A program made the position numbers and the translations under genes. From a virus, in the IMG/VR virus record IMGVR_UViG_3300018080_000412, positions 1 through 32,993 of that record: DNA of 32,993 nucleotides; one strand, 5' to 3'. The notes under the pieces were generated by a model, which had not been told where the DNA came from, did no database searches, and saw only the letters and a list, made by a program, of their open reading frames with translations. Positions 10,821 to 32,993 of the stretch are shown here, one piece after another; within the stretch, counting starts at the first letter, position 1, and each line of letters begins with the position of its first letter.

Positions 10821-11384
10821 ATGCCTATTGTTAAATGTGAGTTTTGTGGAAAAGAATTTAAAAGATTTTCTTGCAGAATTAACAAATTTAAACATAGTTT
10901 TTGTTCACGTGAATGTGTAGCGAATAATCAAATAAAATCAATAGAAAAAAAAGTACTGTTTAATGTTAAAAAACTTTCAAATGGCTGTTGGATATGGAAT
11001 GGATCCTTAACTGAATTTGGTTATGGGCAGGTTTTTCATAATAGAAAAATGTATAGAGCTCATAGGCTTTCATGGATAATACACAACGGAGAAATTCCAA
11101 AAGGAATTCTTATTTGTCATATCTGTGATGTGAGATCGTGCATAAATCCTCAGCATCTCTTCATGGCACGGCATCAGGGGAATATGGACGACATGGTAAA
11201 GAAAGGTAGACAGTCAAAAGGTGAAAACCAATCATTTTCAAAATTAACAGAAAAGCAAGTAAAAGAAATACGAACTATCAACAAAATAGATAAATACTCC
11301 TATATTGATTTAGCTAAACAATACAAAGTTTCTAGAACAACAATTTATAATATCGTGAATTTAAAAGCGTGGAAACATATTTAA
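10821..11384 (+). CDS. HNH homing endonuclease with N-terminal zinc finger
   Basis: A 187-residue free-standing endonuclease with a strong AGGAGG site. An N-terminal zinc finger (C6, C9, C28, C32) is followed by the HNH_3-type core at about residues 55-130: 'AHRLSWIIHNGEIPKG', 'CHICDVRSCINPQHLF' (H81, H100, N109, H112) and 'GNMDDMVKKGR'. A C-terminal helix-turn-helix (YIDLAKQYKVSRTTIYNIV) gives target binding. It lies between the late promoter leader and the scaffold gene. Two relatives sit at 24290 and 25802. Such genes spread by cutting phages that lack them; some have become packaging nickases, which cannot be told here. Confidence 0.85.
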   Translation: MPIVKCEFCGKEFKRFSCRINKFKHSFCSRECVANNQIKSIEKKVLFNVKKLSNGCWIWNGSLTEFGYGQVFHNRKMYRAHRLSWIIHNGEIPKGILICHICDVRSCINPQHLFMARHQGNMDDMVKKGRQSKGENQSFSKLTEKQVKEIRTINKIDKYSYIDLAKQYKVSRTTIYNIVNLKAWKHI

Positions 11385-20810: not shown

Positions 20811-22249
20811 TGGCCTTTAAACTTTTAAAGCAAAAAATTGATGATGTTGAAGAAGACGTTTCAGTTGAACAACTAGTAGAACCTGGAAAATTTAAATTAT
20901 TAAGTAGACCAGTAGAGACAGTTGAAGAAGGTGGCGAGTTTGCAAAGACATCAAAAGAAATAGCTAAGAGAGGAGCAACAGGATTAACTGAAGGATTTCT
21001 TGGAACATATGGAGATATACTAGATACTTTAGGTCTTCAATCACCTGATGTATTACAACCAGGTCAAAAAGAACTATTAAAAGCACAACATGAAGCTCCA
21101 GAATCTATTCAGCCATTTTTAGATATGGATGATGATTTGATGCCTCGTTATGGTAAATTACCTTCTAGTGAAGATATAAAAAAGTTTTTAGGTATGTTGG
21201 GTATTAATATAAAGCCTTCAAAAGAATTTCTTGGAAGAGCGGCTGAACGTGCTGGTAAAGGTCTTGGTGCAGCATTAAGTTTTGGTGGAGCTGGTGCTGG
21301 TGCAATGGCAACAGGTGGTGCAGTTGGTCAAGCAGTTGAAGAAGGTACAGAAAGTCAATTAGCTGGTAGTTTAGCTGAATTAGCAACTTCCTTACGTGCT
21401 GACAAAATTTTAACAAAGAAATTATTACCTGGTGCAAAAACTAAAGATATTGTCGAAGCAGGAAGAAAACTTGGGCTGACTGAACAACAACTTACACCTT
21501 TAATACAGAAAGAAGGGAAGCTTGCTTTTCTAGGAAAGTTTGCTCGTAAAGGTGATAAGCAAGAAAAATTGATAGCAGGAATAGAATCTACTCTTGGTGA
21601 TGCTTATGAATTTGTAAAAACAGATGCAAAGAAATTGCCAGCAATTCCAAAAGAAGACTCTGCAAAGTTAGCAGATTCTTTTGATAATATTGTAGAAAAC
21701 CTTAAGAAGACAGTAAAACCTAATCCAGAAAAACAACAAGCTATCGATTTTATAAGTGTTGCTTCAGACATAGTTAGAAAAGAAGGAACAACACCAGAAT
21801 CTTTAATAAACTTTTATCAAGATGTTAATCACATCGTTAATTGGAGGAAAGCAGGACAGAAAAGTGCTGCTGCTTTAAAAGGACCAATTGTTAAGGCATT
21901 AAATAAAGCTGATCCTAAATTGGCAAAAGAATTTGAAAATTTAAATACCCTGTATTCTAAATTTAAAACTGCTAGCAAACATTTGAAGCCTAAAGAGATT
22001 GATAAATATTTAAATATGGGTAAAATTGGTGGTTTAGCTCTTTCACTTGCTACTGGACATCCAGCAGGAGTAAAAGCTGCTATTGGAGCTGGAGTAACTA
22101 TGGAAGCTGCAACTCAAGCATTGACTAACCCAAGGTTCCAAAATATGTCTAGAAAACTCTTAAAAGCTATTACAGATGATAAAACAAAATCTGCATTAGC
22201 TTTGAGCAGACAAATGGTTGAATTCATTAAGGAGAAACCAACTCAATAG
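20810..22249 (+). CDS. probable ejection protein with hydrophobic glycine-rich segment
   Basis: A 479-residue protein, translationally coupled to the previous gene. Residues about 145-180 (GKGLGAALSFGGAGAGAMATGG) and 400-435 (MGKIGGLALSLATGHPAGVKAA, then AIGAGVTMEAATQ) are glycine/alanine-rich and hydrophobic, which suits membrane penetration. The rest is helical and lysine-rich with 'LINFYQDVNHIVNWRKAG'. The pattern resembles P22-gp16-like ejection proteins. No lytic transglycosylase motif is visible. It is the last structural gene before the leftward island. Confidence 0.58.
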   Translation: MAFKLLKQKIDDVEEDVSVEQLVEPGKFKLLSRPVETVEEGGEFAKTSKEIAKRGATGLTEGFLGTYGDILDTLGLQSPDVLQPGQKELLKAQHEAPESIQPFLDMDDDLMPRYGKLPSSEDIKKFLGMLGINIKPSKEFLGRAAERAGKGLGAALSFGGAGAGAMATGGAVGQAVEEGTESQLAGSLAELATSLRADKILTKKLLPGAKTKDIVEAGRKLGLTEQQLTPLIQKEGKLAFLGKFARKGDKQEKLIAGIESTLGDAYEFVKTDAKKLPAIPKEDSAKLADSFDNIVENLKKTVKPNPEKQQAIDFISVASDIVRKEGTTPESLINFYQDVNHIVNWRKAGQKSAAALKGPIVKALNKADPKLAKEFENLNTLYSKFKTASKHLKPKEIDKYLNMGKIGGLALSLATGHPAGVKAAIGAGVTMEAATQALTNPRFQNMSRKLLKAITDDKTKSALALSRQMVEFIKEKPTQ

Positions 22250-22302
22250 GTTTCAAGTATCCCATATAATATAATTGCAAAAGCTCCTAATAAAAAATAC
22301 AT
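22243..22302 (-). CDS. 19-residue membrane micropeptide, MYFLLGA family
   Basis: On the minus strand AGGAG stands seven bases before the ATG at 22302 (an in-frame ATG at 22305 is also possible). The product is MYFLLGAFAIILYGILETY. It shares MYFLLGA and the YG with the 17-residue peptide at 4989-5042, and the DNA around the start is almost the same. It follows the 41-residue membrane gene by 13 bases and overlaps the end of the rightward gene by seven. Function is unknown. Confidence 0.5.
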   Translation of the reverse strand: MYFLLGAFAIILYGILETY

Positions 22303-22315
22303 CATTTCTCTCCTA

Positions 22316-22441
22316 TTATCTTATATTTTTATAAAATCTATATCTCTTTTTTCTAGCCTGTATTCTTCTCTTAATACACTCTTCTTCTGCCTTTATGATC
22401 CAATAAATAATAGCGACTAACAAAGTAAGAATCCAAAACAT
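22316..22441 (-). CDS. 41-residue membrane peptide with basic tail
   Basis: The frame starts at the ATG at 22441 with only GGTGA as a possible ribosome site. The product MFWILTLLVAIIYWIIK has one clear membrane helix, then a strongly basic tail (KRRIQARKKRYRFYKNIR). Such N-in or C-in basic anchors occur in small phage membrane proteins, including some holin-like ones. It is directly followed by the 19-residue MYFLLGA peptide, so the two form a small leftward unit. The rest of 22250-22590 holds an inverted repeat and a rightward terminator. Confidence 0.45.
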   Translation of the reverse strand: MFWILTLLVAIIYWIIKAEEECIKRRIQARKKRYRFYKNIR

Positions 22442-22506
22442 ACGTTCACCAATTAAATTAATTTTTGAGATTTGACTTCTTTCAAGACATCACATAAGAT
22501 TACTGC

Positions 22507-22553
22507 GTAAGTCCAATTATTTGAATTGTTTTTATATAAATTTTAGGACTTAC
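22507..22553. repeat. inverted repeat flanking an A/T core
   Basis: GTAAGTCC (22507-22514) and GGACTTAC (22546-22553) are perfect 8-bp arms around 31 A/T-rich bases, between the leftward micro-genes and the rightward terminator. It may be an RNA structure in the 3' region of the ejection gene or a protein site. Confidence 0.35.
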
Positions 22554-22564
22554 ATCATTGTTTT

Positions 22565-22593
22565 GAGGGTCCTCTTATGAGGACTCTTTTTTT
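22565..22593 (+). terminator. rightward intrinsic terminator of the virion block
   Basis: GGGTCCTC (22567-22574) pairs with GAGGACTC (22579-22586) over a TTAT loop and is followed by seven Ts (22587-22593). It ends rightward transcription about 315 bases after the last ejection gene. Confidence 0.75.
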
Positions 22594-22747
22594 AATTTTC
22601 TTCAAGTCTTCTTTTTATAGATTCCATGATAAAATCTCTCATTGATTGGCCGCGCCTGCTAGCTTCTAACTTTACTACTGTATGATCCTTTTGTGTCACT
22701 AAAAAGCTAATTTGTTTATTTCTTTTCTCTTTTATCTTTTCAGTCAT
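22592..22747 (-). CDS. ribbon-helix-helix regulator
   Basis: A 51-residue protein. The start is the ATG at 22747 because AGGAGGGAG lies directly before it; the longer frame from 22780 has none. After a basic arm (TEKIKEKRNKQ), 'ISFLVTQKDHTVVKLEASRRGQ' (strand and first helix) and 'SMRDFIMESIKRRLEEN' (second helix) form an Arc/CopG-type ribbon-helix-helix. These bind operators as dimers of dimers through the strand. A divergent promoter pair lies just upstream, so it may control itself and the tail-fibre unit. The fold call is good; the target is inferred. Confidence 0.7.
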   Translation of the reverse strand: MTEKIKEKRNKQISFLVTQKDHTVVKLEASRRGQSMRDFIMESIKRRLEEN

Positions 22748-22771
22748 ATTCTCCCTCCTAGTACTTGTACA

Positions 22772-22800
22772 ATAATACAATACTACATGTTTAAACGCAA
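22772..22800 (-). promoter_or_regulatory. leftward promoter of the RHH gene with operator-like repeats
   Basis: On the minus strand TTGCGT (22800-22795), 17 bases, TATTAT (22777-22772). The downstream stretch repeats ATTGTA and contains the palindrome TTGTACAA, suitable for binding by the ribbon-helix-helix protein itself. Confidence 0.5.
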
Positions 22801-22827
22801 TACAAAAATATTGCCTTCAACTATAAT
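22799..22827 (+). promoter_or_regulatory. rightward promoter of the fibre locus
   Basis: AATACA (22799-22804), 17 bases, perfect TATAAT (22822-22827). The -35 overlaps that of the leftward promoter by two bases, so the two compete. A GAAGTC/GACTTC hairpin lies in the leader before AAAGGAG. Confidence 0.45.
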
Positions 22828-22875
22828 AAAAGTAATTTGAAGTCTTCATGACTTCTATACAAAAGGAGATTTAAG

Positions 22876-24201
22876 ATGACAAAATTAGTAAAATCATACG
22901 GTCTTGACAACCCACTTCAAGATGTTTTTCCTAAACCAATTATTTCAACAAGAGCTCCAACATCTAGCGATAAGAGTTTACCTCTTGGGCAGATGTGGAT
23001 TAATAAATCTGCTGGTTCAGCGTATACACTTACTTCAGTTTCTGCTGGTTCAGCGAATTGGGAACTTTCTACTGCAAGTGCTGGTGGAGCTCCAATAACG
23101 AAATACGTAGTTGATGCAGATGGTACTGGAGACTATACAACAATTCAAGCTGCTATAAATGCTGCTAATGCTGCTGGAGGAGAGGCAACTGTATGGGTAA
23201 GAAATGGTACTTATACAGAAGATTTAACTCTTTACAGCAAAATAAATGTTGTAGGAGCAACTGGATTTGGAAATTTAGATAATTGTGTAATTGTTGGAAA
23301 ACATACGCCTCCTACAACCGGAGCTTTTATTATTGATGGATTTGTTCTTAGAAGCGCTACTCATGTATTTGATAGTGCTGCCGCTGGCTCAGCATCTATT
23401 GTTGTTACAAATTGTATCATAGATATTACGAATGGTTATACATTCAATTTACCAAATTGGACAGGTTTGTTTGAAGGTTTCGATATTGGATCAACATCAA
23501 CAAATGATGGATTTGTAAATAATACTGGTGGAGCATCTGTTAGAATGGTAACTACTTTGTGTGGTCAGGGTAGTGCTAATCCTATGATAGTTAGTGGTCC
23601 AACTGATTTTTTTGAGGGATATCCAATTGTTCCAATAAATGCACAGGGAGCTGCCGTTGTTAATATCTATGGTGGTGCGTGGTATAATACTATTACAACA
23701 TCTGGTACTGCATCACTTGCTATTTTCAATTCTTCATGTGAGACAGGTGTTAATGCTGCTATTTCTCATGGATCTACTGGAACTGTTTCCTTAACTAATA
23801 CCGCTATTTCTTCAAGCGCTAATCCAGTTATTGCTGGTGCAGGAGCTGGTGCGCTAACACTTGCTTCAACTACTTTCACTAGTGGAAATGTTCTAGCAGG
23901 TACTTTAACGCTTGGAACTGCTGATGAAACTAAGATGGCGAGTCTTAAGATTGGTAGTAAAATAAATGTAGAAACTACTGGTGCTGCTGCAACGGCTGGA
24001 ACTTCTACACTTGTTGGTGGAACTGTTACTGTTAATACAACTGCTGTTACAGCAAATTCAATCATACTTCTTTCACATCAAACTAATGCAGGAGCTCCTG
24101 GATTTGTTTCTGTTACTGCAAGGGTTGTTGGAACTTCGTTTACAATTACCTCAAGTTCAGGAACAGATACATCTACAATTGGCTGGCTTATTTTGAACTA
24201 A
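22876..24201 (+). CDS. tail spike with beta-helix domain
   Basis: A 441-residue protein with AAAGGAG before the ATG. Residues 1-70 are an anchor-like head with 'STRAPTSSDKSLPLGQMWINKSAGSAYTL', shared with the protein at 31448. Residues about 78-125 (YVVDADGTGDYTTIQAAINAAN, GEATVWVRNGTYTEDL) are the opening of a pectate-lyase-type right-handed beta-helix, as in spikes that degrade or bind surface polysaccharide. The rest is Thr/Ala/Gly-rich helix rungs ending in a small beta domain. Enzyme residues cannot be assigned. It is the first gene of the fibre locus. Confidence 0.72.
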   Translation: MTKLVKSYGLDNPLQDVFPKPIISTRAPTSSDKSLPLGQMWINKSAGSAYTLTSVSAGSANWELSTASAGGAPITKYVVDADGTGDYTTIQAAINAANAAGGEATVWVRNGTYTEDLTLYSKINVVGATGFGNLDNCVIVGKHTPPTTGAFIIDGFVLRSATHVFDSAAAGSASIVVTNCIIDITNGYTFNLPNWTGLFEGFDIGSTSTNDGFVNNTGGASVRMVTTLCGQGSANPMIVSGPTDFFEGYPIVPINAQGAAVVNIYGGAWYNTITTSGTASLAIFNSSCETGVNAAISHGSTGTVSLTNTAISSSANPVIAGAGAGALTLASTTFTSGNVLAGTLTLGTADETKMASLKIGSKINVETTGAAATAGTSTLVGGTVTVNTTAVTANSIILLSHQTNAGAPGFVSVTARVVGTSFTITSSSGTDTSTIGWLILN

Positions 24202-24230
24202 ATTGCTTAGTTTAAAACAGTTAAGTCTGT

Positions 24231-24276
24231 GGTTGTTTAGCAAAGATGAGTATATTATACTTTTTGTTAAACAACC
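24231..24276 (+). terminator. 15-bp stem-loop before the second HNH gene
   Basis: 24231-24245 pairs with 24262-24276 over all 15 positions (two G-T pairs), then CATTTTTATT follows. It can end transcription of the spike gene. It also lies in the leader of the HNH gene starting at 24290, so it could limit its expression. Confidence 0.6.
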
Positions 24277-24289
24277 CATTTTTATTAAG

Positions 24290-24931
24290 ATGTTTTACAA
24301 AAGAAAAGACATATCTGGAAGAAAATACGGCTATTTAGAAGTAATCGAATCTTCTCATACTGTATCTAGGGGGAAAGCAAACTTTGCAGTTTGGAAATGT
24401 AGATGCATTTGCGGAAAGATAGTTTATGCAGAAGGCGTAAGGTTAAGAAATGGAACTCTTAAATCATGTGGATGTAAGCAATACAAACCAGCTGAAGAAA
24501 GATTGCAATCTAAAATTAGAATAAATAATGCAACAAAATGTCATGAATGGACTGGTGCAAAAGACAAGGATGGGTATGGGAAAATTATGGTCGATAAAAG
24601 ATATAAAAAAACCCATAGATATGCATATGAACTTACTTTTGGAGAAATACCAAAAGGTATGTTAATAGCTCATGCTTGCGATAATCCGTGTTGTTGCAAT
24701 CCTAATCATTTATTTTTGACAGATATAAAAGGAAATAATTTAGATTGTAGAATGAAAGGAAGAAATGTGCGTGGAAGAAAGTGTCATAATTCTAAACTTA
24801 CTGAAAAAGATGTTTTAGAAATAAGAAATTTAAAAAATAAAATGGGTGGAATTGAAATCGCAAAGCTTTATGGTGTTTCGCGTGCTTCAATTTCTTTAAT
24901 CCTTAATAGGAAAATTTGGAAGCACATCTAA
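24290..24931 (+). CDS. HNH homing endonuclease with zinc-binding N-domain
   Basis: A 213-residue endonuclease. The ATG at 24290 is preferred since the frame upstream (TTG at 24203) runs through the long hairpin; the ribosome site is poor. Residues 10-65 form a zinc domain (WKCRCICGK and TLKSCGC). The HNH core follows: 'HRYAYELTFGEIPKGM', 'AHACDNPCCCNPNHLF' and 'GNNLDCRMKGR'. The C-terminal HTH (GIEIAKLYGVSRASISLILNRKIWKHI, in two parts) resembles the endonuclease at 10821. It interrupts the fibre locus after the spike gene. A palindrome of the AATGTAAA family begins at its stop codon. Confidence 0.82.
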   Translation: MFYKRKDISGRKYGYLEVIESSHTVSRGKANFAVWKCRCICGKIVYAEGVRLRNGTLKSCGCKQYKPAEERLQSKIRINNATKCHEWTGAKDKDGYGKIMVDKRYKKTHRYAYELTFGEIPKGMLIAHACDNPCCCNPNHLFLTDIKGNNLDCRMKGRNVRGRKCHNSKLTEKDVLEIRNLKNKMGGIEIAKLYGVSRASISLILNRKIWKHI

Positions 24932-24949
24932 TGTAAAACCGCTTTACAT
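24931..24949. repeat. ATGTAAA-N5-TTTACAT palindrome, copy 2
   Basis: Perfect 7-bp arms around ACCGC, starting at the last base of the HNH stop codon. It differs from copy 1 (10606-10626) by one base over 19. On the minus strand it lies just downstream of the terminator at 24955-24991. Confidence 0.5.
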
Positions 24950-24991
24950 AAAAAGAACCCCAAGTAAGGAGGCGTCCAAAGCTTGGGGTTC
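24950..24991 (-). terminator. leftward intrinsic terminator
   Basis: GAACCCCAAG (24955-24964) and CTTGGGGTTC (24982-24991) form a perfect 10-bp stem; on the minus strand the stem is followed by TTTTT. It ends the leftward gene 25027-25263. Confidence 0.75.
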
Positions 24992-25026
24992 CAGACTCTC
25001 ATGAGTCACTTGTTGCAGATTTCTTT

Positions 25027-25263
25027 TCAGTCTTCTTTTTCGTCTTCAGGTATAGGTAATTCTACAATGTTATCTTTTTCAGTCTTCTGTTTTTCTTCTT
25101 CTTCTCTTTGAATGGCTTCCCACAGTTCATTTTTAAGTTCAGACACTACACCAAAAAGTTCATTTATGTCTGCATCTACTGGAAATTCTAGAACGAAGAC
25201 ACGTTTTTCATTTTTTATGGCTAGAAGCTTTCTTCGAGCGATTTGATCCAAAACTATTTTCAT
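25027..25263 (-). CDS. small protein of unknown function with acidic tail
   Basis: A 78-residue protein. The ATG at 25263 is supported by GGAGAT just upstream on the minus strand; the longer frame from 25299 is not. It begins MKIVLDQIARRKLLAIKNEK, then strand 'RVFVLEFPVDADINELFGVV', a helix (SELKNELWEAIQREEEEKQK), and an acidic tail (ELPIPEDEKED). No family is recognised. It is isolated between two rightward fibre-locus units with its own terminator, which suggests a separately controlled cargo gene. A possible -35/-10 upstream is not convincing. Confidence 0.6.
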   Translation of the reverse strand: MKIVLDQIARRKLLAIKNEKRVFVLEFPVDADINELFGVVSELKNELWEAIQREEEEKQKTEKDNIVELPIPEDEKED

Positions 25264-25340
25264 GATATCTCCATATTTATATGTTAGCAGTATATACAAT
25301 TAATACTTACATAGCATTATATTTTAATGCAAAATATTTC

Positions 25341-25369
25341 TTGCTACCTAAGAATAAAGATTTTATTAT
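25341..25369 (+). promoter_or_regulatory. rightward promoter of the second fibre unit
   Basis: TTGCTA (25341-25346), 17 bases, TATTAT (25364-25369), 73 bases before the gene at 25442. Confidence 0.45.
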
Positions 25370-25407
25370 TAAGGTAAGCCTGTATTATTCAGGTGCAATT
25401 TATTTGC

Positions 25408-25435
25408 GCAGCATCAGCTGCTCCTAACAAAGGAG
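25408..25435 (+). promoter_or_regulatory. leader hairpins covering the ribosome site
   Basis: GCAGC/GCTGC (25408-25412, 25417-25421) and CTCCT/AGGAG (25421-25425, 25431-25435). The second includes the Shine-Dalgarno of the gene at 25442 and shares one base with the first, so the two may exchange and set translation. Confidence 0.35.
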
Positions 25436-25441
25436 ATATTT

Positions 25442-25792
25442 ATGGCCTATGGAAAAAGGTCTTCTTGGGGCGCTATTAAAGAATTAGCGTTCGGATCACT
25501 TTCAGACACATATGCAGCTGTCGGAAGTGCGATAACCAAAGCAGCTCGTATTGTTAAAATTACAAATAACACAAATGAGACTGTCTATTTTTCTGTTGAT
25601 GGTTCAACAGATATGTTAAAACTTCCAGAAAATTCTTTTCAAATCTGGGATATAACTACAAATAAAGCATTGGGAAATAAACCTCAGTTTATTGAAGTTG
25701 GAACTCAGTTCTATGCTCGTCATATTACTGCTGTAGCTCCTACCTCTGGTTGGATCTCTGTAGAGTATCTTATAGTCGAATCAGGTTCATAG
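25442..25792 (+). CDS. small virion-type beta protein of unknown function
   Basis: A 116-residue protein preceded by AAAGGAGAT. After a short tail (MAYGKRSSWG) it is beta-rich: 'ARIVKITNNTNETVYFSVDGST', 'LPENSFQIWDITTNK', 'FIEVGTQFYARHI', 'GWISVEYLIVES'. Small proteins with 'v.i.N.Td..vy.S.DG....' and '...f.lyD.t.N' occur in many phages near tail genes. A structural role is likely; which part is unknown. The HNH gene at 25802 follows by nine bases. Confidence 0.58.
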   Translation: MAYGKRSSWGAIKELAFGSLSDTYAAVGSAITKAARIVKITNNTNETVYFSVDGSTDMLKLPENSFQIWDITTNKALGNKPQFIEVGTQFYARHITAVAPTSGWISVEYLIVESGS

Positions 25793-25801
25793 GGGGACGA
25801 C

Positions 25802-26287
25802 ATGGCATATGGTCCAAAGCAAACTTTAAAAGAAGGGTTTGAAAAATTTGTCATTAAAACTCCTGATGCCTGTTGGGATTGGTCTGGGTGCTGTCCTGAA
25901 AACCCTGGTTACGGTCAATTTAGGCATGAGGGTAAGAGAGAGAGGGCTCATAGAGCTTCGTGGATAATACATTTTGGAGAAATTCCAAATGGAATGTTTG
26001 TATGTCACAAATGTGATAATAAGAGATGCTCTAATCCAGACCATCTATTTTTGGCAGATGTAAAAGGAAACAATTTAGATTGTCTAAAAAAAGGACGTCA
26101 TCCAACTATGGGTAAGAAAGGTTCTGAAAATATAATGGCTAAATTAAGTGATAAAGAGGCGGTGAAAATAAGAAATTTAGCTGTTGATGGATCAATTCCT
26201 CAACATAAAATTGCTTCAGAATATAATGTTTCTCAGCCACTGGTTTCTTTAATTAAGCGTAAGATACTAAGGGGGAATGCATTGTGA
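25802..26287 (+). CDS. HNH homing endonuclease, third copy
   Basis: A 161-residue endonuclease behind GGGGGA. It lacks the N-terminal zinc finger of the other two. The HNH core is 'AHRASWIIHFGEIPNGM', 'CHKCDNKRCSNPDHLF' and 'GNNLDCLKKGRH'. The C-terminal HTH reads 'QHKIASEYNVSQPLVSLIKRK'. The core is closest by eye to the copy at 24290 (both have GNNLDC). Its stop overlaps the GTG of the following fibre gene by four bases, so it is coupled into the fibre unit. Confidence 0.82.
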   Translation: MAYGPKQTLKEGFEKFVIKTPDACWDWSGCCPENPGYGQFRHEGKRERAHRASWIIHFGEIPNGMFVCHKCDNKRCSNPDHLFLADVKGNNLDCLKKGRHPTMGKKGSENIMAKLSDKEAVKIRNLAVDGSIPQHKIASEYNVSQPLVSLIKRKILRGNAL

Positions 26288-27549
26288 GTCAGGCAGGAAT
26301 TATTAATGTTGGTGCTGTTACTATCCCTGATGCAACAGAAGTTATAAAGGGAAAGGTTAGACTTGCAACAACAGCAGAGGCAATAGCTGGTGTCAATGAT
26401 ACCGCGGCTATTACGCCTTTAAAATTAGCTCAGGCAACGGGTACATCTATAGATAAGCTTTATATAGTTGCTAAAAATGGTAGCGATGTAACTGGAGACG
26501 GTTCTTTAGCTAATCCATTTTTGACAATAACAAAAGCAATGACAACCATTGGTGTACCAGCTGATGCAGCTGATGAAAAGAGAAGATTTACTGTTTTAGT
26601 AATGCCAGGAGAATATGACGAAGCCGTCACAATGCCCGCAGCTAGAATAATAAATCTTATGGGTCTTGGACCTGTAACACTTGGTGATGGAGCTAATGCA
26701 AATTTCTCATCAACAACTCCAAGAAATCTAACTATAGATGTTAATGATGCTGCCGAGAAAGGAACAGGAAGACCATCATATACGATAGGTACTTATGTAG
26801 CAGCTTCTGGAGAAACATCAAGTACTCATTTAGCATACAGAGCTGGATTTACTATCTCTGGAGACTTGGTTTATAACAACATTGGAATTGCTTCAACGAT
26901 AGAAACCACCTTAACAGGTGTTAAAGTACAAGGTAATGTTGATGGTACCTCTGCAGGTATAGGAGGAATTAATTTTCTTATATATCGGTGCTTCTTTGAT
27001 AATTTATTTAATGCTAGTACAGCGCTTCTTAATGTTGTTACATCCACTGAATTTGATGGATTAATAACATGTGCTAGTTATGGAAGAATGGTTGAATGTC
27101 AACTACAAGGTGGTATGACATTTACAAATAGTAATTCTAACGTTCCTCCTACAGGTATTTTTAATAGTCAAATAGACGGCGGTACATTTACATCTGCTAA
27201 CAATCTGAAGGTAGATTATGTCACATACCAATCCTGGATAAGCAGCGGAGCTGCTTTTGCTGGTGGTGGTAGCATTGAATCTAAAGAATTAGCAATTAAG
27301 TATAGCGTTACAGATGCAGATGGAACATCAGGTTGGACTGGTCCAGCTGGTGGATTTTATTCAAGGACGATTACGGCGGCAACACACTTACAGGGTGTTT
27401 TGCCATCTATAGAAATCTATCTTTATGATGGAACAAAGTCTACATCTGTTGTTGTAGATACATTAGAAGTAGCAGCAAACGGAGATGTCACGATAAAAGT
27501 TCCTGACACTCCAGATTTAAGATTTAGAGCAAGAATAGTTATTTCCTAA
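26284..27549 (+). CDS. tail fibre/spike with beta-helix and module C
   Basis: A 421-residue protein starting at GTG, with GGGGGAA upstream. The N-terminus 'IKGKVRLATTAEAIAGVNDTAAITPLKLAQA' is the repeat used by many fibres for attachment. Residues about 58-330 (YIVAKNGSDVTGDGSLANPF, FTVLVMPGEYDEAV) form a right-handed beta-helix. The last 80 residues (DADGTSGWTGPAGGFYSRTI, etc.) form a C-terminal domain shared with the next gene, here called module C. It is a receptor-binding or depolymerising appendage; no active site is assigned. Confidence 0.7.
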   Translation: MSQAGIINVGAVTIPDATEVIKGKVRLATTAEAIAGVNDTAAITPLKLAQATGTSIDKLYIVAKNGSDVTGDGSLANPFLTITKAMTTIGVPADAADEKRRFTVLVMPGEYDEAVTMPAARIINLMGLGPVTLGDGANANFSSTTPRNLTIDVNDAAEKGTGRPSYTIGTYVAASGETSSTHLAYRAGFTISGDLVYNNIGIASTIETTLTGVKVQGNVDGTSAGIGGINFLIYRCFFDNLFNASTALLNVVTSTEFDGLITCASYGRMVECQLQGGMTFTNSNSNVPPTGIFNSQIDGGTFTSANNLKVDYVTYQSWISSGAAFAGGGSIESKELAIKYSVTDADGTSGWTGPAGGFYSRTITAATHLQGVLPSIEIYLYDGTKSTSVVVDTLEVAANGDVTIKVPDTPDLRFRARIVIS

Positions 27550-27560
27550 AGGAGGATAAA

Positions 27561-28817
27561 ATGACTACATTATATGGAAGTTTGGTTGTATTAGGTGATA
27601 TGACCTCAGGTGTTTTGAAGGTTCAAGATACAAACTTTAGTAACAACCTTAACTTAAAATGGAATGAAGACGACACGGTTGATAGAGTGTTGAATTTCTT
27701 AGTTAATGCTGGTGATAGAAGCGTTTCTCTATCTGGCAATTTAACAGTAGAAAGCGCATCCATTCTTAACCAAGATTTAACAACAGATGCTAATGTAACA
27801 TTTGCACAAGTTACAGCTGGAAATATTCAAGCAAGTGCTAATGCTATTATTTCTACTGATGTTAATGGAGATTTAGCTCTTACTCCTAACGGAACAGGAG
27901 ATCTAGTATTAGATGGTCTTAAGTGGCCTCAGGCTGATGGAACAGCTAATTATATCCTTAAAACAGATGGTGCTGGACAACTTTCTTGGATTGCTAATGA
28001 TGCTGGTGATGTAGTAGGTCCTGCTGGTGCTACTGACAATGCTGTTGCTAGATTTGATACAGCAACTGGTAAATTAATCCAAAATTCAGCTGTATTAATT
28101 GATGATTCAAATAATGTAACTGGAGTTGTTGCTCTAACAGCTACTACAGTTAATGCAACTACATTTGATACAAATATTGTAGCTGCTGGAGTAACCTTAG
28201 CTGGAACTTCTTTAGTTGCTGACGGTACAGATGCTAATATTGATATAACAATCACACCTAAGGGTACTGGATCTGTTGTTATGTCACTGGTTGATATTAA
28301 CGGTGGTGCTATTGATGGTACAACTATAGGTGCAACGGTTGCTTCTACTGGTAAATTTACTGCAGTAGATGTTGACAATATCAAAATAGATGGTAATGCA
28401 ATTACTTCTACTGATGCAGCTGGAAGCATTACAATCACTCCAGATACTACTGGTGATCTAGTTCTTGACGGTTTGAAATGGCCTCAGGCAGACGGAACAG
28501 CTGATTATGTTCTTAAGACTGATGGAGCGGGTCAATTGTCATGGGTATCTAATAGCGTTGCAACATATACAGTATATGATGCTGATGCTACTACCGCATG
28601 GGGAGCTGCTGCAGGTGGTTTCTATACACGTACAATTACTGCTGCTACACATGGAAAAGGTGTATCTCCAGTTGTAAGCATCATGGAATATGATGGAACC
28701 AATTTAGATGTTGCTGGTGTAGATCGTGTAAGAATTATACAAGCAAATGGTAATGTTGAAATAAGAGTTCCTGAAGCTCCAGACGGAAGATTCAGAGCTG
28801 GTATTTTCATAATGTAA
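27561..28817 (+). CDS. modular tail fibre with two repeat modules
   Basis: A 418-residue protein with AAAGGAGG upstream. The repeat module 'GTGDLVLDGLKWPQADGTA' plus 'TDGAGQLSW' (module A) occurs twice, at about residues 88-143 and 272-328. Between them is 'TFDTNIVAAGVTLAGTSLVA' with 'DGTDANIDITITPKGTG', found again in the gene at 32196. The C-terminal 80 residues are module C, as in the gene before. Its stop codon lies inside the third AATGTAAA palindrome. Confidence 0.7.
   Translation: MTTLYGSLVVLGDMTSGVLKVQDTNFSNNLNLKWNEDDTVDRVLNFLVNAGDRSVSLSGNLTVESASILNQDLTTDANVTFAQVTAGNIQASANAIISTDVNGDLALTPNGTGDLVLDGLKWPQADGTANYILKTDGAGQLSWIANDAGDVVGPAGATDNAVARFDTATGKLIQNSAVLIDDSNNVTGVVALTATTVNATTFDTNIVAAGVTLAGTSLVADGTDANIDITITPKGTGSVVMSLVDINGGAIDGTTIGATVASTGKFTAVDVDNIKIDGNAITSTDAAGSITITPDTTGDLVLDGLKWPQADGTADYVLKTDGAGQLSWVSNSVATYTVYDADATTAWGAAAGGFYTRTITAATHGKGVSPVVSIMEYDGTNLDVAGVDRVRIIQANGNVEIRVPEAPDGRFRAGIFIM
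27822..27989 (+). repeat. fibre module A, copy 1
   Basis: Coding repeat, residues 88-143 of the fibre at 27561, with the core GTGDLVLDGLKWPQADGTA. Other copies: 28374-28544, 28968-29144, 30707-30883. Protein identity is high but codons differ at many third positions, so the duplications are old and selected. Confidence 0.7.
28374..28544 (+). repeat. fibre module A, copy 2
   Basis: Residues 272-328 of the same fibre. The core is TTGDLVLDGLKWPQADGTAD, followed by TDGAGQLSW. It opens DVDNIKIDGN, as in copies 3 and 4. Confidence 0.7.
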
Positions 28818-28831
28818 AGCTGTTTTACATT
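28811..28831. repeat. AATGTAAA-N5-TTTACATT palindrome, copy 3
   Basis: Perfect 8-bp arms around GCTGT, containing the TAA stop of the gene at 27561. It heads a run of three palindromes (next at 28853-28876 and 28877-28890). Confidence 0.5.
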
Positions 28832-28852
28832 TAACTTCTTAGCTTAATCCCT

Positions 28853-28890
28853 ATATTCCCCCTTATGGGGGAATATGGTTAATTTTAACC
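28853..28890 (+). promoter_or_regulatory. tandem palindromes before a fibre gene
   Basis: ATATTCCCCC-TTAT-GGGGGAATAT (28853-28876) is a perfect 10-bp hairpin. GGTTAA-TT-TTAACC (28877-28890) follows at once. The first may end transcription or cap the downstream RNA; its U-tract is weak. The next start lies 15 bases on. Confidence 0.45.
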
Positions 28891-28904
28891 ATATAGGAAA
28901 TTCT

Positions 28905-30635
28905 GTGGCATATAATTTCAAAGGTTCTTTCAACATATTAAAGGATCTAACAGCTGCGAAAGCAGATGTTGATAATGTTCAAATTGATGGTAATTCCATC
29001 ATCTCAACCGATACCAATGGGGTTTTAAATCTTACTCCTAATGGTACTGGTGATCTAGTATTAGATGGTCTTAAATGGCCTCAAGCTGATGGTACGGCAA
29101 ATCAAATACTATATACAAATGGATCTGCTCAAATAGCATGGAAGAATCAACAGATAGTAGATCAAGAAGGTTATACTTTTAATCCAAATGGATTTCAAGA
29201 TCCAGACACAGATGTTCAGGTTTCATTTGTCGATGGAACAAGAACGTTAACCATTCAACCCGCTGTTACTTCTTTCAAATATTGGTCTGAAGGGCAAGTA
29301 TATACAAAAACTGGCTCTGAGAATATTGTTATAGCTAATACAGAGGGTAATCATTATGTTTATTATAATGGAAGTTCCCTAGCAGAAACAACGACATGGA
29401 GTACTGATTTAATATTAAAGTATTCTCTTGTAGCGGTAATACATTGGGATGCAACAAATAGTAAGCAGATATATTTTGGTGATGAATATAAACATACTAC
29501 ACAAATGGGATCTAGAACACATCTTTATCTTCATGATACACGTGGATATGCTCTAGAGACTGGTGGAGGACTTACAGATATAGTAGCAGATGGATCTGGA
29601 GATGTAAATTCTAGTGCTCAATTTGGATGTGAAAGAACAATTGCATTTGATGAGGATGCTGAATTTGATCTTACTGCAAGAGCAAGCACTTCAAATATAG
29701 CTGTATATTATAAATCTGGAGCAGACGCATCTAATATTTGGCGTGTTGATGAAACAGCTTCTTTTGGAGTATTAACTACTGGAACTGGAAGAGCTGCTTA
29801 TAATGAACTTACAGGAGGAAATTGGGTTCAAACTGAGATAGGAAATCTAAATTTTGTGTTAGCTCATATCTTTACTTATAATGATTCTACACGTAGATTT
29901 GGTGTTATACAGGGTGAAAATGAATATAGTACACTTATTTCAGCTCGTGATGGTGCATATGTAGAAATTAATAATATTGTTATAGATGGTTTAGTAGGGC
30001 CTGAAATAAAGTTCTTGGGAACTATTATTTATCAAACAAGCAATACATATGCTAATACAGTTAAATCTAGAATTAGATCAACAGATACTGGTGACGATTA
30101 TATTGATCTTAGAGATGAGTCAATTACTAGAGGCGGTGTTGCAGGAACATTAACAGATCATGGAGCGTTAACTGGTCTTGGAGATGATGATCATACACAA
30201 TATTTGTTAGCTGATGGTACTAGAACTCTTTCAGGAACATTTACACATGATGGAATATCTTCAGGATATACAGGATCTCAGAATGTTTCTAAACAATATG
30301 GAGTTACAACATCAGATGCTACTATTACACAGATTGCAGCTATAACATTAGATACAAACACAATGGTATCTGTTGAAGCTCGTGTATCAGGTTTTATTGA
30401 TGACTATAGTGCTTCTTTAACTGGGTTTATAAGATATACAGCAAGACGCGTTGCTGGTGGTGCTATTGAGACATCCGCTCCAATTATTGATGTTCAAGAG
30501 GACAGTTCTGGTTCACCTACTGTAGATGCTGATGTTAGTGGTAATGATGTTCGTATTCTTGTTCAGGGTATAGCAGCGGAAAATTGGGTATGGGTTGCAA
30601 CGGTAAATTATAATTTTGTTAAAACGTCAGCATAG
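28905..30635 (+). CDS. modular tail fibre with modules A and B
   Basis: A 576-residue protein. The start is the GTG at 28905: AGGAAA lies just before it, and the protein then begins VAYNFKGSFN like its neighbour at 30644. The in-frame ATG at 28875 sits in the palindromes and lacks a ribosome site. Module A follows (about residues 22-80 from the GTG). A large central domain includes 'DPDTDVQVSFVDGTRTLTIQP' and 'LTDHGALTGLGDDDHTQYLL', the latter a common fibre motif. The last 123 residues (30264-30632) are module B, shared with the next two genes. Confidence 0.7.
   Translation: MAYNFKGSFNILKDLTAAKADVDNVQIDGNSIISTDTNGVLNLTPNGTGDLVLDGLKWPQADGTANQILYTNGSAQIAWKNQQIVDQEGYTFNPNGFQDPDTDVQVSFVDGTRTLTIQPAVTSFKYWSEGQVYTKTGSENIVIANTEGNHYVYYNGSSLAETTTWSTDLILKYSLVAVIHWDATNSKQIYFGDEYKHTTQMGSRTHLYLHDTRGYALETGGGLTDIVADGSGDVNSSAQFGCERTIAFDEDAEFDLTARASTSNIAVYYKSGADASNIWRVDETASFGVLTTGTGRAAYNELTGGNWVQTEIGNLNFVLAHIFTYNDSTRRFGVIQGENEYSTLISARDGAYVEINNIVIDGLVGPEIKFLGTIIYQTSNTYANTVKSRIRSTDTGDDYIDLRDESITRGGVAGTLTDHGALTGLGDDDHTQYLLADGTRTLSGTFTHDGISSGYTGSQNVSKQYGVTTSDATITQIAAITLDTNTMVSVEARVSGFIDDYSASLTGFIRYTARRVAGGAIETSAPIIDVQEDSSGSPTVDADVSGNDVRILVQGIAAENWVWVATVNYNFVKTSA
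28968..29144 (+). repeat. fibre module A, copy 3
   Basis: Opens DVDNVQIDGNSIISTDTNG with core GTGDLVLDGLKWPQADGTA; the final part diverges (LYTNGSAQIAW). Confidence 0.7.
30264..30632 (+). repeat. fibre module B, copy 1
   Basis: C-terminal 123 residues, with 'TQIAAITLDTNTMVSVEAR', 'YTARRVAGGA', 'QEDSSGSPT' and 'DADVSGNDVR'. Copies 2 and 3 at 31067-31435 and 31808-32182. Confidence 0.7.
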
Positions 30636-30643
30636 GTATTTTT

Positions 30644-31438
30644 ATGGCATATAATTTCAAAGGGTCTTTTAATGTATTAAAAGATCTAACAGCATCTAAA
30701 ACAGATGTTGACAATATTCAAATAGATGGAAATTCTATCATTTCAACTGATACCAATGGAGCTTTAAATCTTACTCCTAACGGAACAGGAGATCTAGTTC
30801 TTGATGGTCTTAAATGGCCACAAGCTGATGGAACTGCCACTTACTTTCTTCAAACAGATGGTGCTGGTCAGTTATCTTGGGCGATTCCAGCTGGCGCTGG
30901 CGATGTTGTAGGACCAGGTTCTTCTACAGATAATGCTATTGCTCGCTATGATCTAACTACTGGAAAGATAATTCAAAACTCTGGTGTAATAATTGATGAT
31001 AGTAATAATGTTACAGGTGCTGCATCAGTAAGTCTTACAGGTATTACTCTTGATGGTATAGGAGCTGGATACGCTAATTCAGAACAAGTTTTTAAACAAG
31101 CTGGAGTTCAAACTACAAACACTACACCTACTCAGATTGCAGCTATAACATTAGCTACAAATACTATGGTAACGGTAGAGGCAAGATTTAATGGATTTAT
31201 TAGTGATTACTCAGCATCATGTGGTGGATTCTTACAATATACAGCTAGAAGAGTAGCGGGAGGAGCACTTGAAGTTTCGTCTCCAATAGTAAATGTTCAG
31301 GAAGATAGTTCAGGAGCACCAACGATAGATGCTGATGTTAGTGGTAATGATGTAAGATTACTTGTTACTGGAGTTGGAGCAGAAACTTGGAACTGGACCG
31401 TTTCATATAATTATCATTTTACGCAGACTAATGCATAA
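30644..31438 (+). CDS. short modular tail fibre with modules A and B
   Basis: A 264-residue protein that keeps the N-terminus (MAYNFKGSFNVLKDLTASKT), module A and module B of the gene before, but lacks its large central domain. In its place is a short linker (GDVVGPGSSTDNAIARYDLT, IIDDSNNVTG) that matches the linker after module A in the gene at 27561. It is therefore a mosaic of two neighbours. Only a weak AGGT precedes the ATG. It may be a minor fibre or an assembly partner of the longer one. Confidence 0.68.
   Translation: MAYNFKGSFNVLKDLTASKTDVDNIQIDGNSIISTDTNGALNLTPNGTGDLVLDGLKWPQADGTATYFLQTDGAGQLSWAIPAGAGDVVGPGSSTDNAIARYDLTTGKIIQNSGVIIDDSNNVTGAASVSLTGITLDGIGAGYANSEQVFKQAGVQTTNTTPTQIAAITLATNTMVTVEARFNGFISDYSASCGGFLQYTARRVAGGALEVSSPIVNVQEDSSGAPTIDADVSGNDVRLLVTGVGAETWNWTVSYNYHFTQTNA
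30707..30883 (+). repeat. fibre module A, copy 4
   Basis: Opens DVDNIQIDGNSIISTDTNG, nearly the same as copy 3, but ends TDGAGQLSWA like copy 1, showing a cross-over type of mosaic. Confidence 0.7.
31067..31435 (+). repeat. fibre module B, copy 2
   Basis: Last 123 residues of the gene at 30644, the same length as copy 1 and without gaps between them by eye. Confidence 0.7.
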
Positions 31439-31447
31439 GGAGGAGAT

Positions 31448-32185
31448 ATGGTAGCTAAAGGATTACCCGTTAAACAACCGTTGGGATACTTGGGTATTCG
31501 TGAAACAGATCCTCCCCAAATATATATTTCACCAAGAGCTCCTACTTCAGGAGATTATAGACGTTACCAACTTGGTGACGAATGGATTGACCAATCAACA
31601 AATGATATATGGAAACTTGCTTCTAAATCAGGAAATGTTGCTGTATGGGTTGAAATAGGAGATTCTGTAGGACTTTTGAGTTCTTTAACATCTGATAGTG
31701 GTATCGCTACACCAGTAGCAAATACTATTACATGTACTGGAAATAATGGTCTTCAGACAATAGGATCAGCTGGTTCTTTAACTTATCAATTTTCTCCTGT
31801 ATCTGCTGGTTATTCTGGATCTCAGAGAGAATATCGTCAAAGCTCTATACAAACTACAGATGCAACACCAACAGATATTGTTTCTATTGCACTTGCAGAG
31901 GGTGAAATGATTTCTGTAGAAGCTAGAATTAATGCTTATCGAAGTGATTTTACAGAAGCATTAGTAGCACGAGTTTTTACAGGGGCAAGACGCGGAACAG
32001 GTGGAAATGTCGTTGTTATTAATTCTAATCTAGATATATTTGAAGATAGCTCAGGATCTCCAACTATTACAGTAAATGCAGATGTTGGTAATCAAACGTT
32101 AGATATTAGGTTTGCTGGAGAGGCATTAAAGACATACAATGTTGTTGCAAGCTATGAATATCATAAAACATTAACAAACGCTTAA
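31448..32185 (+). CDS. tail fibre with spike-type anchor and module B
   Basis: A 245-residue protein with AGGAGGAG upstream. The N-terminus (ISPRAPTSGDYRRYQLGDEW, IDQSTNDIWKLAS) matches the anchor of the spike at 22876. The C-terminal 125 residues are a diverged module B ('TDIVSIALAEGEMISVEAR', 'FEDSSGSPT'). It thus joins the head of one appendage to the end of another. No enzymatic domain is visible. Confidence 0.68.
   Translation: MVAKGLPVKQPLGYLGIRETDPPQIYISPRAPTSGDYRRYQLGDEWIDQSTNDIWKLASKSGNVAVWVEIGDSVGLLSSLTSDSGIATPVANTITCTGNNGLQTIGSAGSLTYQFSPVSAGYSGSQREYRQSSIQTTDATPTDIVSIALAEGEMISVEARINAYRSDFTEALVARVFTGARRGTGGNVVVINSNLDIFEDSSGSPTITVNADVGNQTLDIRFAGEALKTYNVVASYEYHKTLTNA
31808..32182 (+). 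repeat. fibre module B, copy 3 (diverged)
   Basis: About 125 residues, with conserved 'SVEAR' and 'EDSSGSPT' but otherwise clearly diverged from copies 1 and 2. Confidence 0.6.
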
Positions 32186-32195
32186 GAGGTAAAAA

Positions 32196-32993
32196 ATGGC
32201 TAATGGCTTCATAAATAATGATTTTACTGCCGACGGTAACATTACTGGAACAACTTTATTCGGCACAACTTTTGATACAAATGTCGCTGCAGCAGGGATT
32301 ACTTTAAGCGGTACTACTCTTGCAGCAGATGGAACAGATGCAAATATTTTAATTACTTTAACACCAAAGGGAACAAGTCCTGTATATTTAAATGGTAAAC
32401 TTGGTATTGGAACTAATGCTGTTCCACATGGAGCAATAGGTGGTGCTTTAGTTGCTTTAGAAGGAGCTAATGCGAGTGTTTCTGCTGGTCCTCATATGCA
32501 GTTTACTACTGCTTCAGATGATTATCCACTGATGCAAATATTTCCATATGCACATAATGACATGCATTATCTTTTTGATTCATATTATGATGGTGCTTTT
32601 AAATCATCTAGTTCTTCATGTAATTTTAGAATATCAAAGAGTTCAACATCTCTTAATATTGCATCTGAGGAAGGAATAGCAGCTGGTAGTGTGGCTACTT
32701 TTCAAAATGATTTAATTATTGATAAAGCAGGATATGTAAATAAACCGCTTCAGCCAGCATTTTGTGCATATAATTCAGCAACTGATCAGGATGTAACTGG
32801 TGATGGAACAACATATACATTAATTTATGATACAGAATTATATGATCAGAATTCTGATTATAATAATGGGACAGGAACTTTTACAGCACCGATAGGAGGG
32901 AAATTTTTATTTACGATAACTACTACTCTTCTAAGTGTAAACGGATTTGGTTTGACTACAATGAATTTAATAACAAGTGATGACACTATTAGA
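32196..32993 (+). CDS. tail fibre with C1q-like domain, partial
   Basis: An open frame of 266 codons that runs off the right edge. AGAGGT precedes the ATG. The first 70 residues repeat a segment of the gene at 27561 ('TTFDTNVAAAGITLSGTTLA', 'DGTDANILITLTPKGT'). A middle part (PHMQFTTASDDYPLMQIFPY) is typical of fibre-borne receptor domains. From about residue 185 comes a C1q/TNF-like beta-sandwich: 'PAFCAYNSATDQDVTGDG', 'YTLIYDTELYDQNSDYNNGT', 'GTFTAPIGGKFLFTITT'. C1q-like heads trimerise and often bind surfaces. The end is missing only because the window stops. Confidence 0.72.
   Translation, partial: MANGFINNDFTADGNITGTTLFGTTFDTNVAAAGITLSGTTLAADGTDANILITLTPKGTSPVYLNGKLGIGTNAVPHGAIGGALVALEGANASVSAGPHMQFTTASDDYPLMQIFPYAHNDMHYLFDSYYDGAFKSSSSSCNFRISKSSTSLNIASEEGIAAGSVATFQNDLIIDKAGYVNKPLQPAFCAYNSATDQDVTGDGTTYTLIYDTELYDQNSDYNNGTGTFTAPIGGKFLFTITTTLLSVNGFGLTTMNLITSDDTIR

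Follow-up and report, generated by a model that had tools for sequence, protein, structure and literature searches.

A probable receptor-binding locus of modular fibre genes in a putatively podovirus-like phage

Genes and modules of the fibre locus

The last 10 kb of the IMG/VR virus record IMGVR_UViG_3300018080_000412 carry fibre-like genes, which are constructed from protein modules that recur in different combinations. The stretch analysed (hereafter the window) is the whole of this record from an uncultured virus, 32,993 bases in length, which is classed as linear and carries no completeness estimate. Terminase, portal and capsid genes are recognizable in the window, and the fibre block lies downstream of these and of a virion structural gene. 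Relatives of the portal protein among isolates include phages that we take to be short-tailed, because of which the window phage would be podovirus-like in morphology.

Domain analysis identified seven fibre-like genes, all on the plus strand and named here by the starts of their listed open reading frames (22876, 26284, 27561, 28875, 30644, 31448 and 32196), with the frames of all genes of the locus being open. A previous sequence-only reading of this DNA had posited at least six appendage genes, and the identification of the products as appendages is supported by the fold match of a tip module (see below) and by K1-lyase_C and C1q domains. The first gene (22876..24201) codes for a fibre or spike with a domain termed R (residues 19-62), a beta-helix-like middle and a tip formed by a K1-lyase_C domain (residues 372-441; Pfam PF24146, E 2.5e-25). 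Its middle recovered a weak pectinesterase match below the Pfam cut-off (PF01095, E 7e-6), and the product also matches a PHROG minor tail protein (E 3.1e-5). The product of 26284 (26284..27549) combines a collar-fibre-like N terminus (N26, residues 9-49) with a long middle and module C (residues 339-421), and recovers the PHROG tail protein (E 2e-8) and tail collar fiber protein (E 1.5e-7) families. Both blastp and the module map reveal the order A-L-D-A-C in 27561 (27561..28817). The 28875 gene (28905..30635) displays a start typified by the motif AYNFKGS, followed by module A, a unique middle and a B1 module, and in 30644 (30644..31438) the same type of start is followed by A, L and B1. The order in 31448 (31448..32185) is N31-R-B2, and 32196 (32196..32993), which is cut by the contig end, combines a D module with a C1q-like tip (PF00386, E 6e-5, at the Pfam cut-off).

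The copy numbers put forward in the sequence-only reading, namely four for A, three for B and two for C, along with recombined linkers, were recovered by blastp, DNA repeats and module profiles alike. Module A is present twice in 27561 (27812..27990 and 28367..28545) and once each in 28875 (28964..29142) and 30644 (30703..30881), and module B as B1 in 28875 (30252..30626) and 30644 (31055..31432) and as B2 in 31448 (31796..32179), all of these copies being on the plus strand. The two copies of C lie at 27298-27546 and 28554-28814 and those of the linker L at 28005-28148 and 30899-31039. The DNA repeats, a 256-base unit present three times and a 179-base unit present four times, agree with these assignments. 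In an all-against-all blastp comparison of the 25 window proteins, with the chance level taken from 20 shuffles of each protein, the main module pairs scored 75-179 bits as against 39 bits for the top shuffle: 28875 and 30644 are connected by matches of 179 and 140 bits, 27561 and 30644 by 164, 26284 and 27561 by 99, 28875 and 31448 by 85, and 27561 and 32196 by 75. The R pair of 22876 and 31448 (34.7 bits) lies, like other weak pairs, within the shuffle range if taken alone, and is accepted because the R profile recurs in 37 loci, some of them overlapping. No match over the Pfam cut-off was found for A, B, C, L, R or P25, a further protein of the locus.

A single anchor common to six genes, as proposed from the sequence alone, was not found; there are two N-terminal types, each in two genes, namely R in 22876 and 31448 and the AYNFKGS start in 28875 and 30644. 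A docking peptide common to the N termini of 27561, 28875, 30644 and 32196 was also considered and rejected: its profile found only its own six seeds at E <0.1, and at a loose threshold it gave 11 forward matches as against 4 in reversed proteins, from which nothing is claimed.

Across 14 module pairs dN/dS (the ratio of nonsynonymous to synonymous divergence) is 0.11-0.54 and dS 0.61-1.91, which is consistent with older duplications under purifying selection, as the sequence-only reading had supposed, although the ages are rough because dS is near saturation. The same reading had described 30644 as joining the start of one neighbour to the linker of another. This resemblance stands, with the start and module A being 81% identical in protein to those of 28875 over 79 residues (dS 0.81) and the linker 69% identical to that of 27561. 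The derived status of the supposed chimera does not: the start-A-L-B order recurs, at 63% identity, in a related record (G041) in which the 28875 type is absent, because of which 30644 is probably not the newer chimera. The start and A of either 28875 or 30644 are only 54-59% identical to the G041 orthologue (dS 1.23-1.47); the start could have passed from 30644 to 28875 or in the other direction.

A model of the B domain of 30644, built with 12 relatives over the stretch 31043-31435, has a predicted local distance difference test score (pLDDT) of 90.7. In VIA-align comparisons this model matches T4 gp9 (Z 10.8 over 113 residues, 3.0 A), the Fri1 tailspike (Z 9.1, 3.4 A) and the Kp9 fibre gp42 (Z 8.5, but with a root-mean-square deviation of 7.2 A); other tailspikes score Z 6.2-7.4, and many beta-sandwich folds, including C1q and TNF-like lectins, Z 4.7-5.7. 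A search of BFVD recovered 138 matches with E up to 0.001, some of which, from phages and giant viruses, are tail fibres or adhesin-like proteins. Module B is thus predicted to fold like the tips of tail fibres or tailspikes, and together with the K1-lyase_C domain of 22876 it supplies the tip or trimerization folds expected of tail-fibre receptor-binding proteins (RBPs).

Not all genes in the range formerly assigned to the appendages belong to this class. The products of 24203 (24203..24931, plus strand; PF13392, E 2.2e-11), which is free-standing, and 25802 (25802..26287, plus strand; PF13392, E 7e-12), which lies between P25 and 26284, are HNH endonucleases and not appendages. Along with a gene at 10821-11384 they define three paralogous HNH_3 endonucleases that are 40-42% identical, the 24203 product being 41% identical to each of the other two. 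P25 (25442..25792, plus strand) is a protein of 116 residues with a predicted beta-sandwich, constituting a small separate family. Its model (pLDDT 88.7) gave only middling fold matches, none of them decisive, with endospore pili (Z 8.2), a siphophage baseplate protein (Z 8.0) and the phage cement protein KHP40 (Z 7.2), all in a range where a shared fold says little. A terminator-like hairpin with a 12-pair stem (28851..28878, plus strand) separates 27561 from the next fibre gene; terminator-like sites number 10 in 22000-32993 as against 4.5 in shuffles. The ATG at 28875, from which that open reading frame is listed, sits at the foot of this hairpin, and the true start is probably the GTG at 28905, because the repeat continues upstream for 12 bases in step with the 30644 start, with which this GTG aligns.

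Fibre loci of relatives and the histories of tips and shafts

A match to the structural protein encoded by gene 16284 is present in 38 of the 42 viral records examined, and the tail-side stretches of 28 were compared. The resulting 31 loci comprise the window, 27 other viral records and three contigs from metagenome-assembled genomes (MAGs), with G001 being excluded as its stretch ends before the fibre genes. Module profiles revealed a recurrent plan, in which an R fibre is followed by one or two copies of P25 and then by fibre genes in succession, which are often tandem paralogues. P25 is present in 26 of the 31 loci, lying within the fibre block wherever relatives have it, and 17 of the loci have one or more paralogous pairs of fibres. 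The median number of module-bearing genes per locus is 3, the window having the highest count (7); these counts are lower bounds, as several stretches are partial, and the profiles, being seeded from the window, favour it. HNH_3 domains were found in 11 of the 38 related records, counting the window; G002 and G041 have none.

The G041 locus codes for P25, a directly adjacent 26284-type protein of 139 residues that has only N26 and C, a 546-residue A/L repeat protein ending in C, and proteins of the 30644 and 31448 types, with the 28875 type and HNH_3 both missing. In G002 an R fibre is accompanied by two copies of P25, by a long protein that terminates in B1 and by a 31448-type protein, and a relative of the tip of the latter is also found in G042. 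The phage contig G043, from a Simkaniaceae MAG, links R to a B1 tip. Between G012 and G007, two R fibres align over residues 1-114 at 68% and 2-157 at 57% identity with the rest unaligned; thus, the N-terminal part is kept and the C-terminal part is without a match, as is typical of modular RBPs.

Certain other features of these relatives were observed in passing. G043 has a further gene of 167 residues (L216 10361-10864), whose R domain is 45% identical to the start of 22876; this gene lies away from the fibre block, between the portal gene and a gene like 11515. The fibre block adjoins the portal gene in G041 and the terminase gene in G042, unlike in the window (L168 8212-12343 and L169 3527-7683, reverse-complement coordinates), and, as both records carry an identical sample number, these positions could reflect misassembly. 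In the close relatives G027 and G029 the last fibres are 99% identical (L188+L189 7966-10872, joined coordinates, versus L186+L187), and the two differ in P25 copy number and in a mid-locus fibre gene that is enlarged or fused.

Domain-by-domain alignments and trees, which the sequence-only reading had named as a check, separated the modules by their histories. Module B splits by gene identity across genomes into B1 and B2 (support 100/100), whereas module A groups largely by genome regardless of gene, with the window copies and one G042 copy on one side and the G041 copies and one G042 copy on the other (100/99). Forcing the A module of 30644 to pair with that of its orthologue in G041 resulted in a tree 44 log-likelihood units worse (approximately unbiased test, p-AU 0.0004), and in a wider set of 31 A copies the genome labels are clustered, requiring 16 changes as against 22.6 in shuffles (0 of 200 as low). 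The parts upstream of B1 also vary, being A-L in 30644 and G041, A and a unique middle in 28875, a long different N-terminal part in G002 and R in G043. In these comparisons, then, the tips follow gene identity across genomes and the shaft module A largely groups by genome, a pattern expected from exchange or gene conversion among adjacent fibre genes, and equally from replacement of the whole shaft by that of another phage. Taken with the module map, the R-B1 join in G043 and the G012/G007 pair, the A and B trees support recombination of the modules, which the earlier reading had described as shuffled.

Interpretation of the locus

The locus is likely to specify the receptor-binding apparatus of a podovirus-like phage, made up of about seven fibre or spike proteins that are separate from one another; their shared starts and shafts would recombine, with the tips being retained. 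Each fibre, probably a homotrimer, would attach through its N-terminal part (R, N26 or a short start, for example AYNFKGS) and continue as a variable shaft, consisting of A, L and D repeats or of a long middle, to a tip at the C terminus in the form of B1, B2, C, a C1q-like or a K1-lyase_C domain. The similar shaft and start segments could serve as recombination sites, at which tips and attachment parts are swapped between neighbouring genes, and the HNH endonucleases within the locus may help mobilise the segment. If several fibres are present on a virion at once, they might confer several receptor specificities or mediate two-step binding; the branched assembly and wider host range put forward in the sequence-only reading may also be envisaged.

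Several observations weigh against this account. A paralogous fibre pair was not found in 14 of the 31 loci, several of them partial, and modules A and L are not specific to the fibre locus, because many further viral contigs carry them too (171 relatives of 30644). With a length of about 156 bp module A is short, and much of its tree is unresolved, including most inner branches in the set of 31 copies. One of the three G042 copies is absent from the tree that separates window and G041 copies, as it was missed by the collection pattern, and the rejected A pairing was named after the wider A tree had been seen. The tree of L (9 rows) showed no clustering by genome, with 200 of 200 shuffles being as low, and among the B1 modules the data neither favoured nor rejected an orthologous pairing of 30644 B with its G041 counterpart or a paralogous one with 28875 (p-AU 0.11-0.29).

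It is possible, though unlikely, that the proteins follow one another as segments of a single long or branched heteromeric fibre, with the shared modules constituting common joints. Several of the window genes differ only in the modules after a similar start, and the long tail fibres of Klebsiella phage RaK2 are reported to be made of nine proteins, seven of them depolymerases (PMC10253068). However, in five of the seven window genes the last module is B or C, and 22876 and 32196 have tip-like domains of other kinds at that end, which accords better with independent tips, and gene content varies among relatives, as in the absence of the 28875 type from G041. The resemblance of P25 to KHP40, one among many beta-sandwich folds, could alternatively imply that part of the locus, chiefly P25, furnishes head decoration or cement proteins rather than tail appendages; this is a rather improbable reading, given that the endospore pili and the baseplate protein score equally well or better and that P25 resides inside the fibre block in the relatives carrying it.

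The number of copies could also mean that a single fibre is functional and the others are decaying duplicates. The incompleteness of 32196 is due only to the contig end, and the open frames, the dN/dS values and the persistence of the 30644 type in G041 and of the 31448 type in both G041 and G002 make such decay very improbable. Repeated segments combined with C-terminal tip variation might likewise point to a diversity-generating retroelement or similar programmed system. Since RVT_1 is over the cut-off in none of the 38 records (window included), with one weak match in G040 and with the possibility that fragments hide one, such diversification is disfavoured, and the repeats, which are coding modules, lie dispersed and have diverged much at synonymous sites, leaving this explanation with a nearly negligible likelihood. 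In this locus tip and shaft histories differ within one set of paralogues, which makes it a clean example from nature for tracing how parts are exchanged.

Possible hosts and likeness to known systems

Bases 1-24000 of the window have no near DNA match in 50,697 phage records, and in the window no tRNAs, and no structured RNAs at Rfam thresholds, were found. The capsid protein has relatives in 374 IMG/VR stretches, the best 80 of the 374 being 75-88% identical. A scan with the capsid alignment over 84,980 species, each represented by a single genome, recovered five relatives, three in Chlamydiota MAGs (L204, Simkaniaceae; L205, Parachlamydiaceae; L207, Parachlamydia) and one each in a Methanomicrobiales and a Methylococcaceae MAG. 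Searches of the respective phyla at E 1e-10 gave hits in 8 of 232 Chlamydiota, 5 of 398 genomes in the phylum to which the Methylococcaceae MAG belongs and 1 of 392 in that of the archaeal MAG. Without the genomes that prompted the choice of phyla, the Chlamydiota have 5 of 229 as against 0 of 788 at E 1e-37, a cut-off picked after the results were seen (Fisher p 0.0006), and 5 of 229 as against 4 of 788 at E 1e-10 (p 0.03); the capsid pieces of these five further Chlamydiota relatives are only 37-48% identical to the window capsid. A K1-lyase_C tip is recognized by Pfam on the first R fibre of the window, G043, G046 and G045, and in none of the six first fibres tested from viral records, nor by Pfam in G186, where only a profile made in this analysis matched.

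The capsid relatives, being more frequent in the Chlamydiota genomes than in those of the two control phyla, point to possible chlamydial hosts for the window phage and its relatives. The occurrences in Chlamydiota MAGs could reflect binning error, because the MAG contigs with capsid relatives are phage-sized or small fragments, none being seen with chromosomal flanks, and the two non-chlamydial MAGs suggest that such error occurs. To our knowledge, the cultured phages of Chlamydiota, which are obligate intracellular bacteria, are only small single-stranded DNA viruses, and no tailed phage of chlamydiae was recognizable from titles and abstract openings in the open-licence literature. We consider it possible, if somewhat short of an even prospect, that the window belongs to a widespread undescribed podovirus-like clade infecting environmental Chlamydiota, with several fibres each, shafts homogenised within a genome by recombination and tips keeping their identity. 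If so, the clade would hold several receptor specificities while still recombining its attachment parts, and the host link would provide a route to study tailed phages that reach bacteria inside amoebae and other eukaryotic cells.

In six of the MAG-contig relatives the major capsid gene is itself in two to five pieces, which in the best cases meet within a few residues (L217 3821-5895, L212 15794-18565 and L214 11883-14031; on the minus strand, L244 11715-13255, L242 16407-18292 and L245 1358-2694). Seven insertions compared from three relatives are mutually homologous, with a common 5' motif, CTRATTGACTTGRA, and a common core that presumably resembles the P7 region of group I introns; Rfam called no intron in the capsid-gene insertions. 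No split gene was seen among 80 capsids from viral contigs, a set selected for long matches.

A modular locus for multiple RBPs is of an already known kind (PMC10408124, PMC10253068). The tailspike and tail-fibre RBPs of E. coli O-antigen phages display recombination mosaicism, with shared motifs proposed as hot spots (PMC10408124), and resemble the window genes in having a conserved attachment part and an exchangeable receptor-binding part; in the window, however, a signature of exchange is also discernible, in shaft module A, between paralogues of one genome. RaK2 similarly has a cluster of many fibre and depolymerase genes in one phage (PMC10253068), but its nine-protein long tail fibres were shown experimentally, whereas the window phage would be podovirus-like, with related contigs reaching about 33-40 kb. 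In its predicted fold module B is like T4 gp9 and the Acinetobacter phage tailspikes (Z 10.8 and 9.1), with 7% sequence identity, and a common fold proves no common function. As in homing-endonuclease islands (PMC10448857), HNH genes adjoin structural genes, but the window has two related HNH genes inside the fibre locus and one at 10821, and comparison of its bases 1-24000 with phage records found no island of high DNA identity. What is new here is the phage clade, the modules without a Pfam match over the cut-off and the contrast between tip and shaft histories. For a virus of this small size the fibre number is unusual, as is the possible host.

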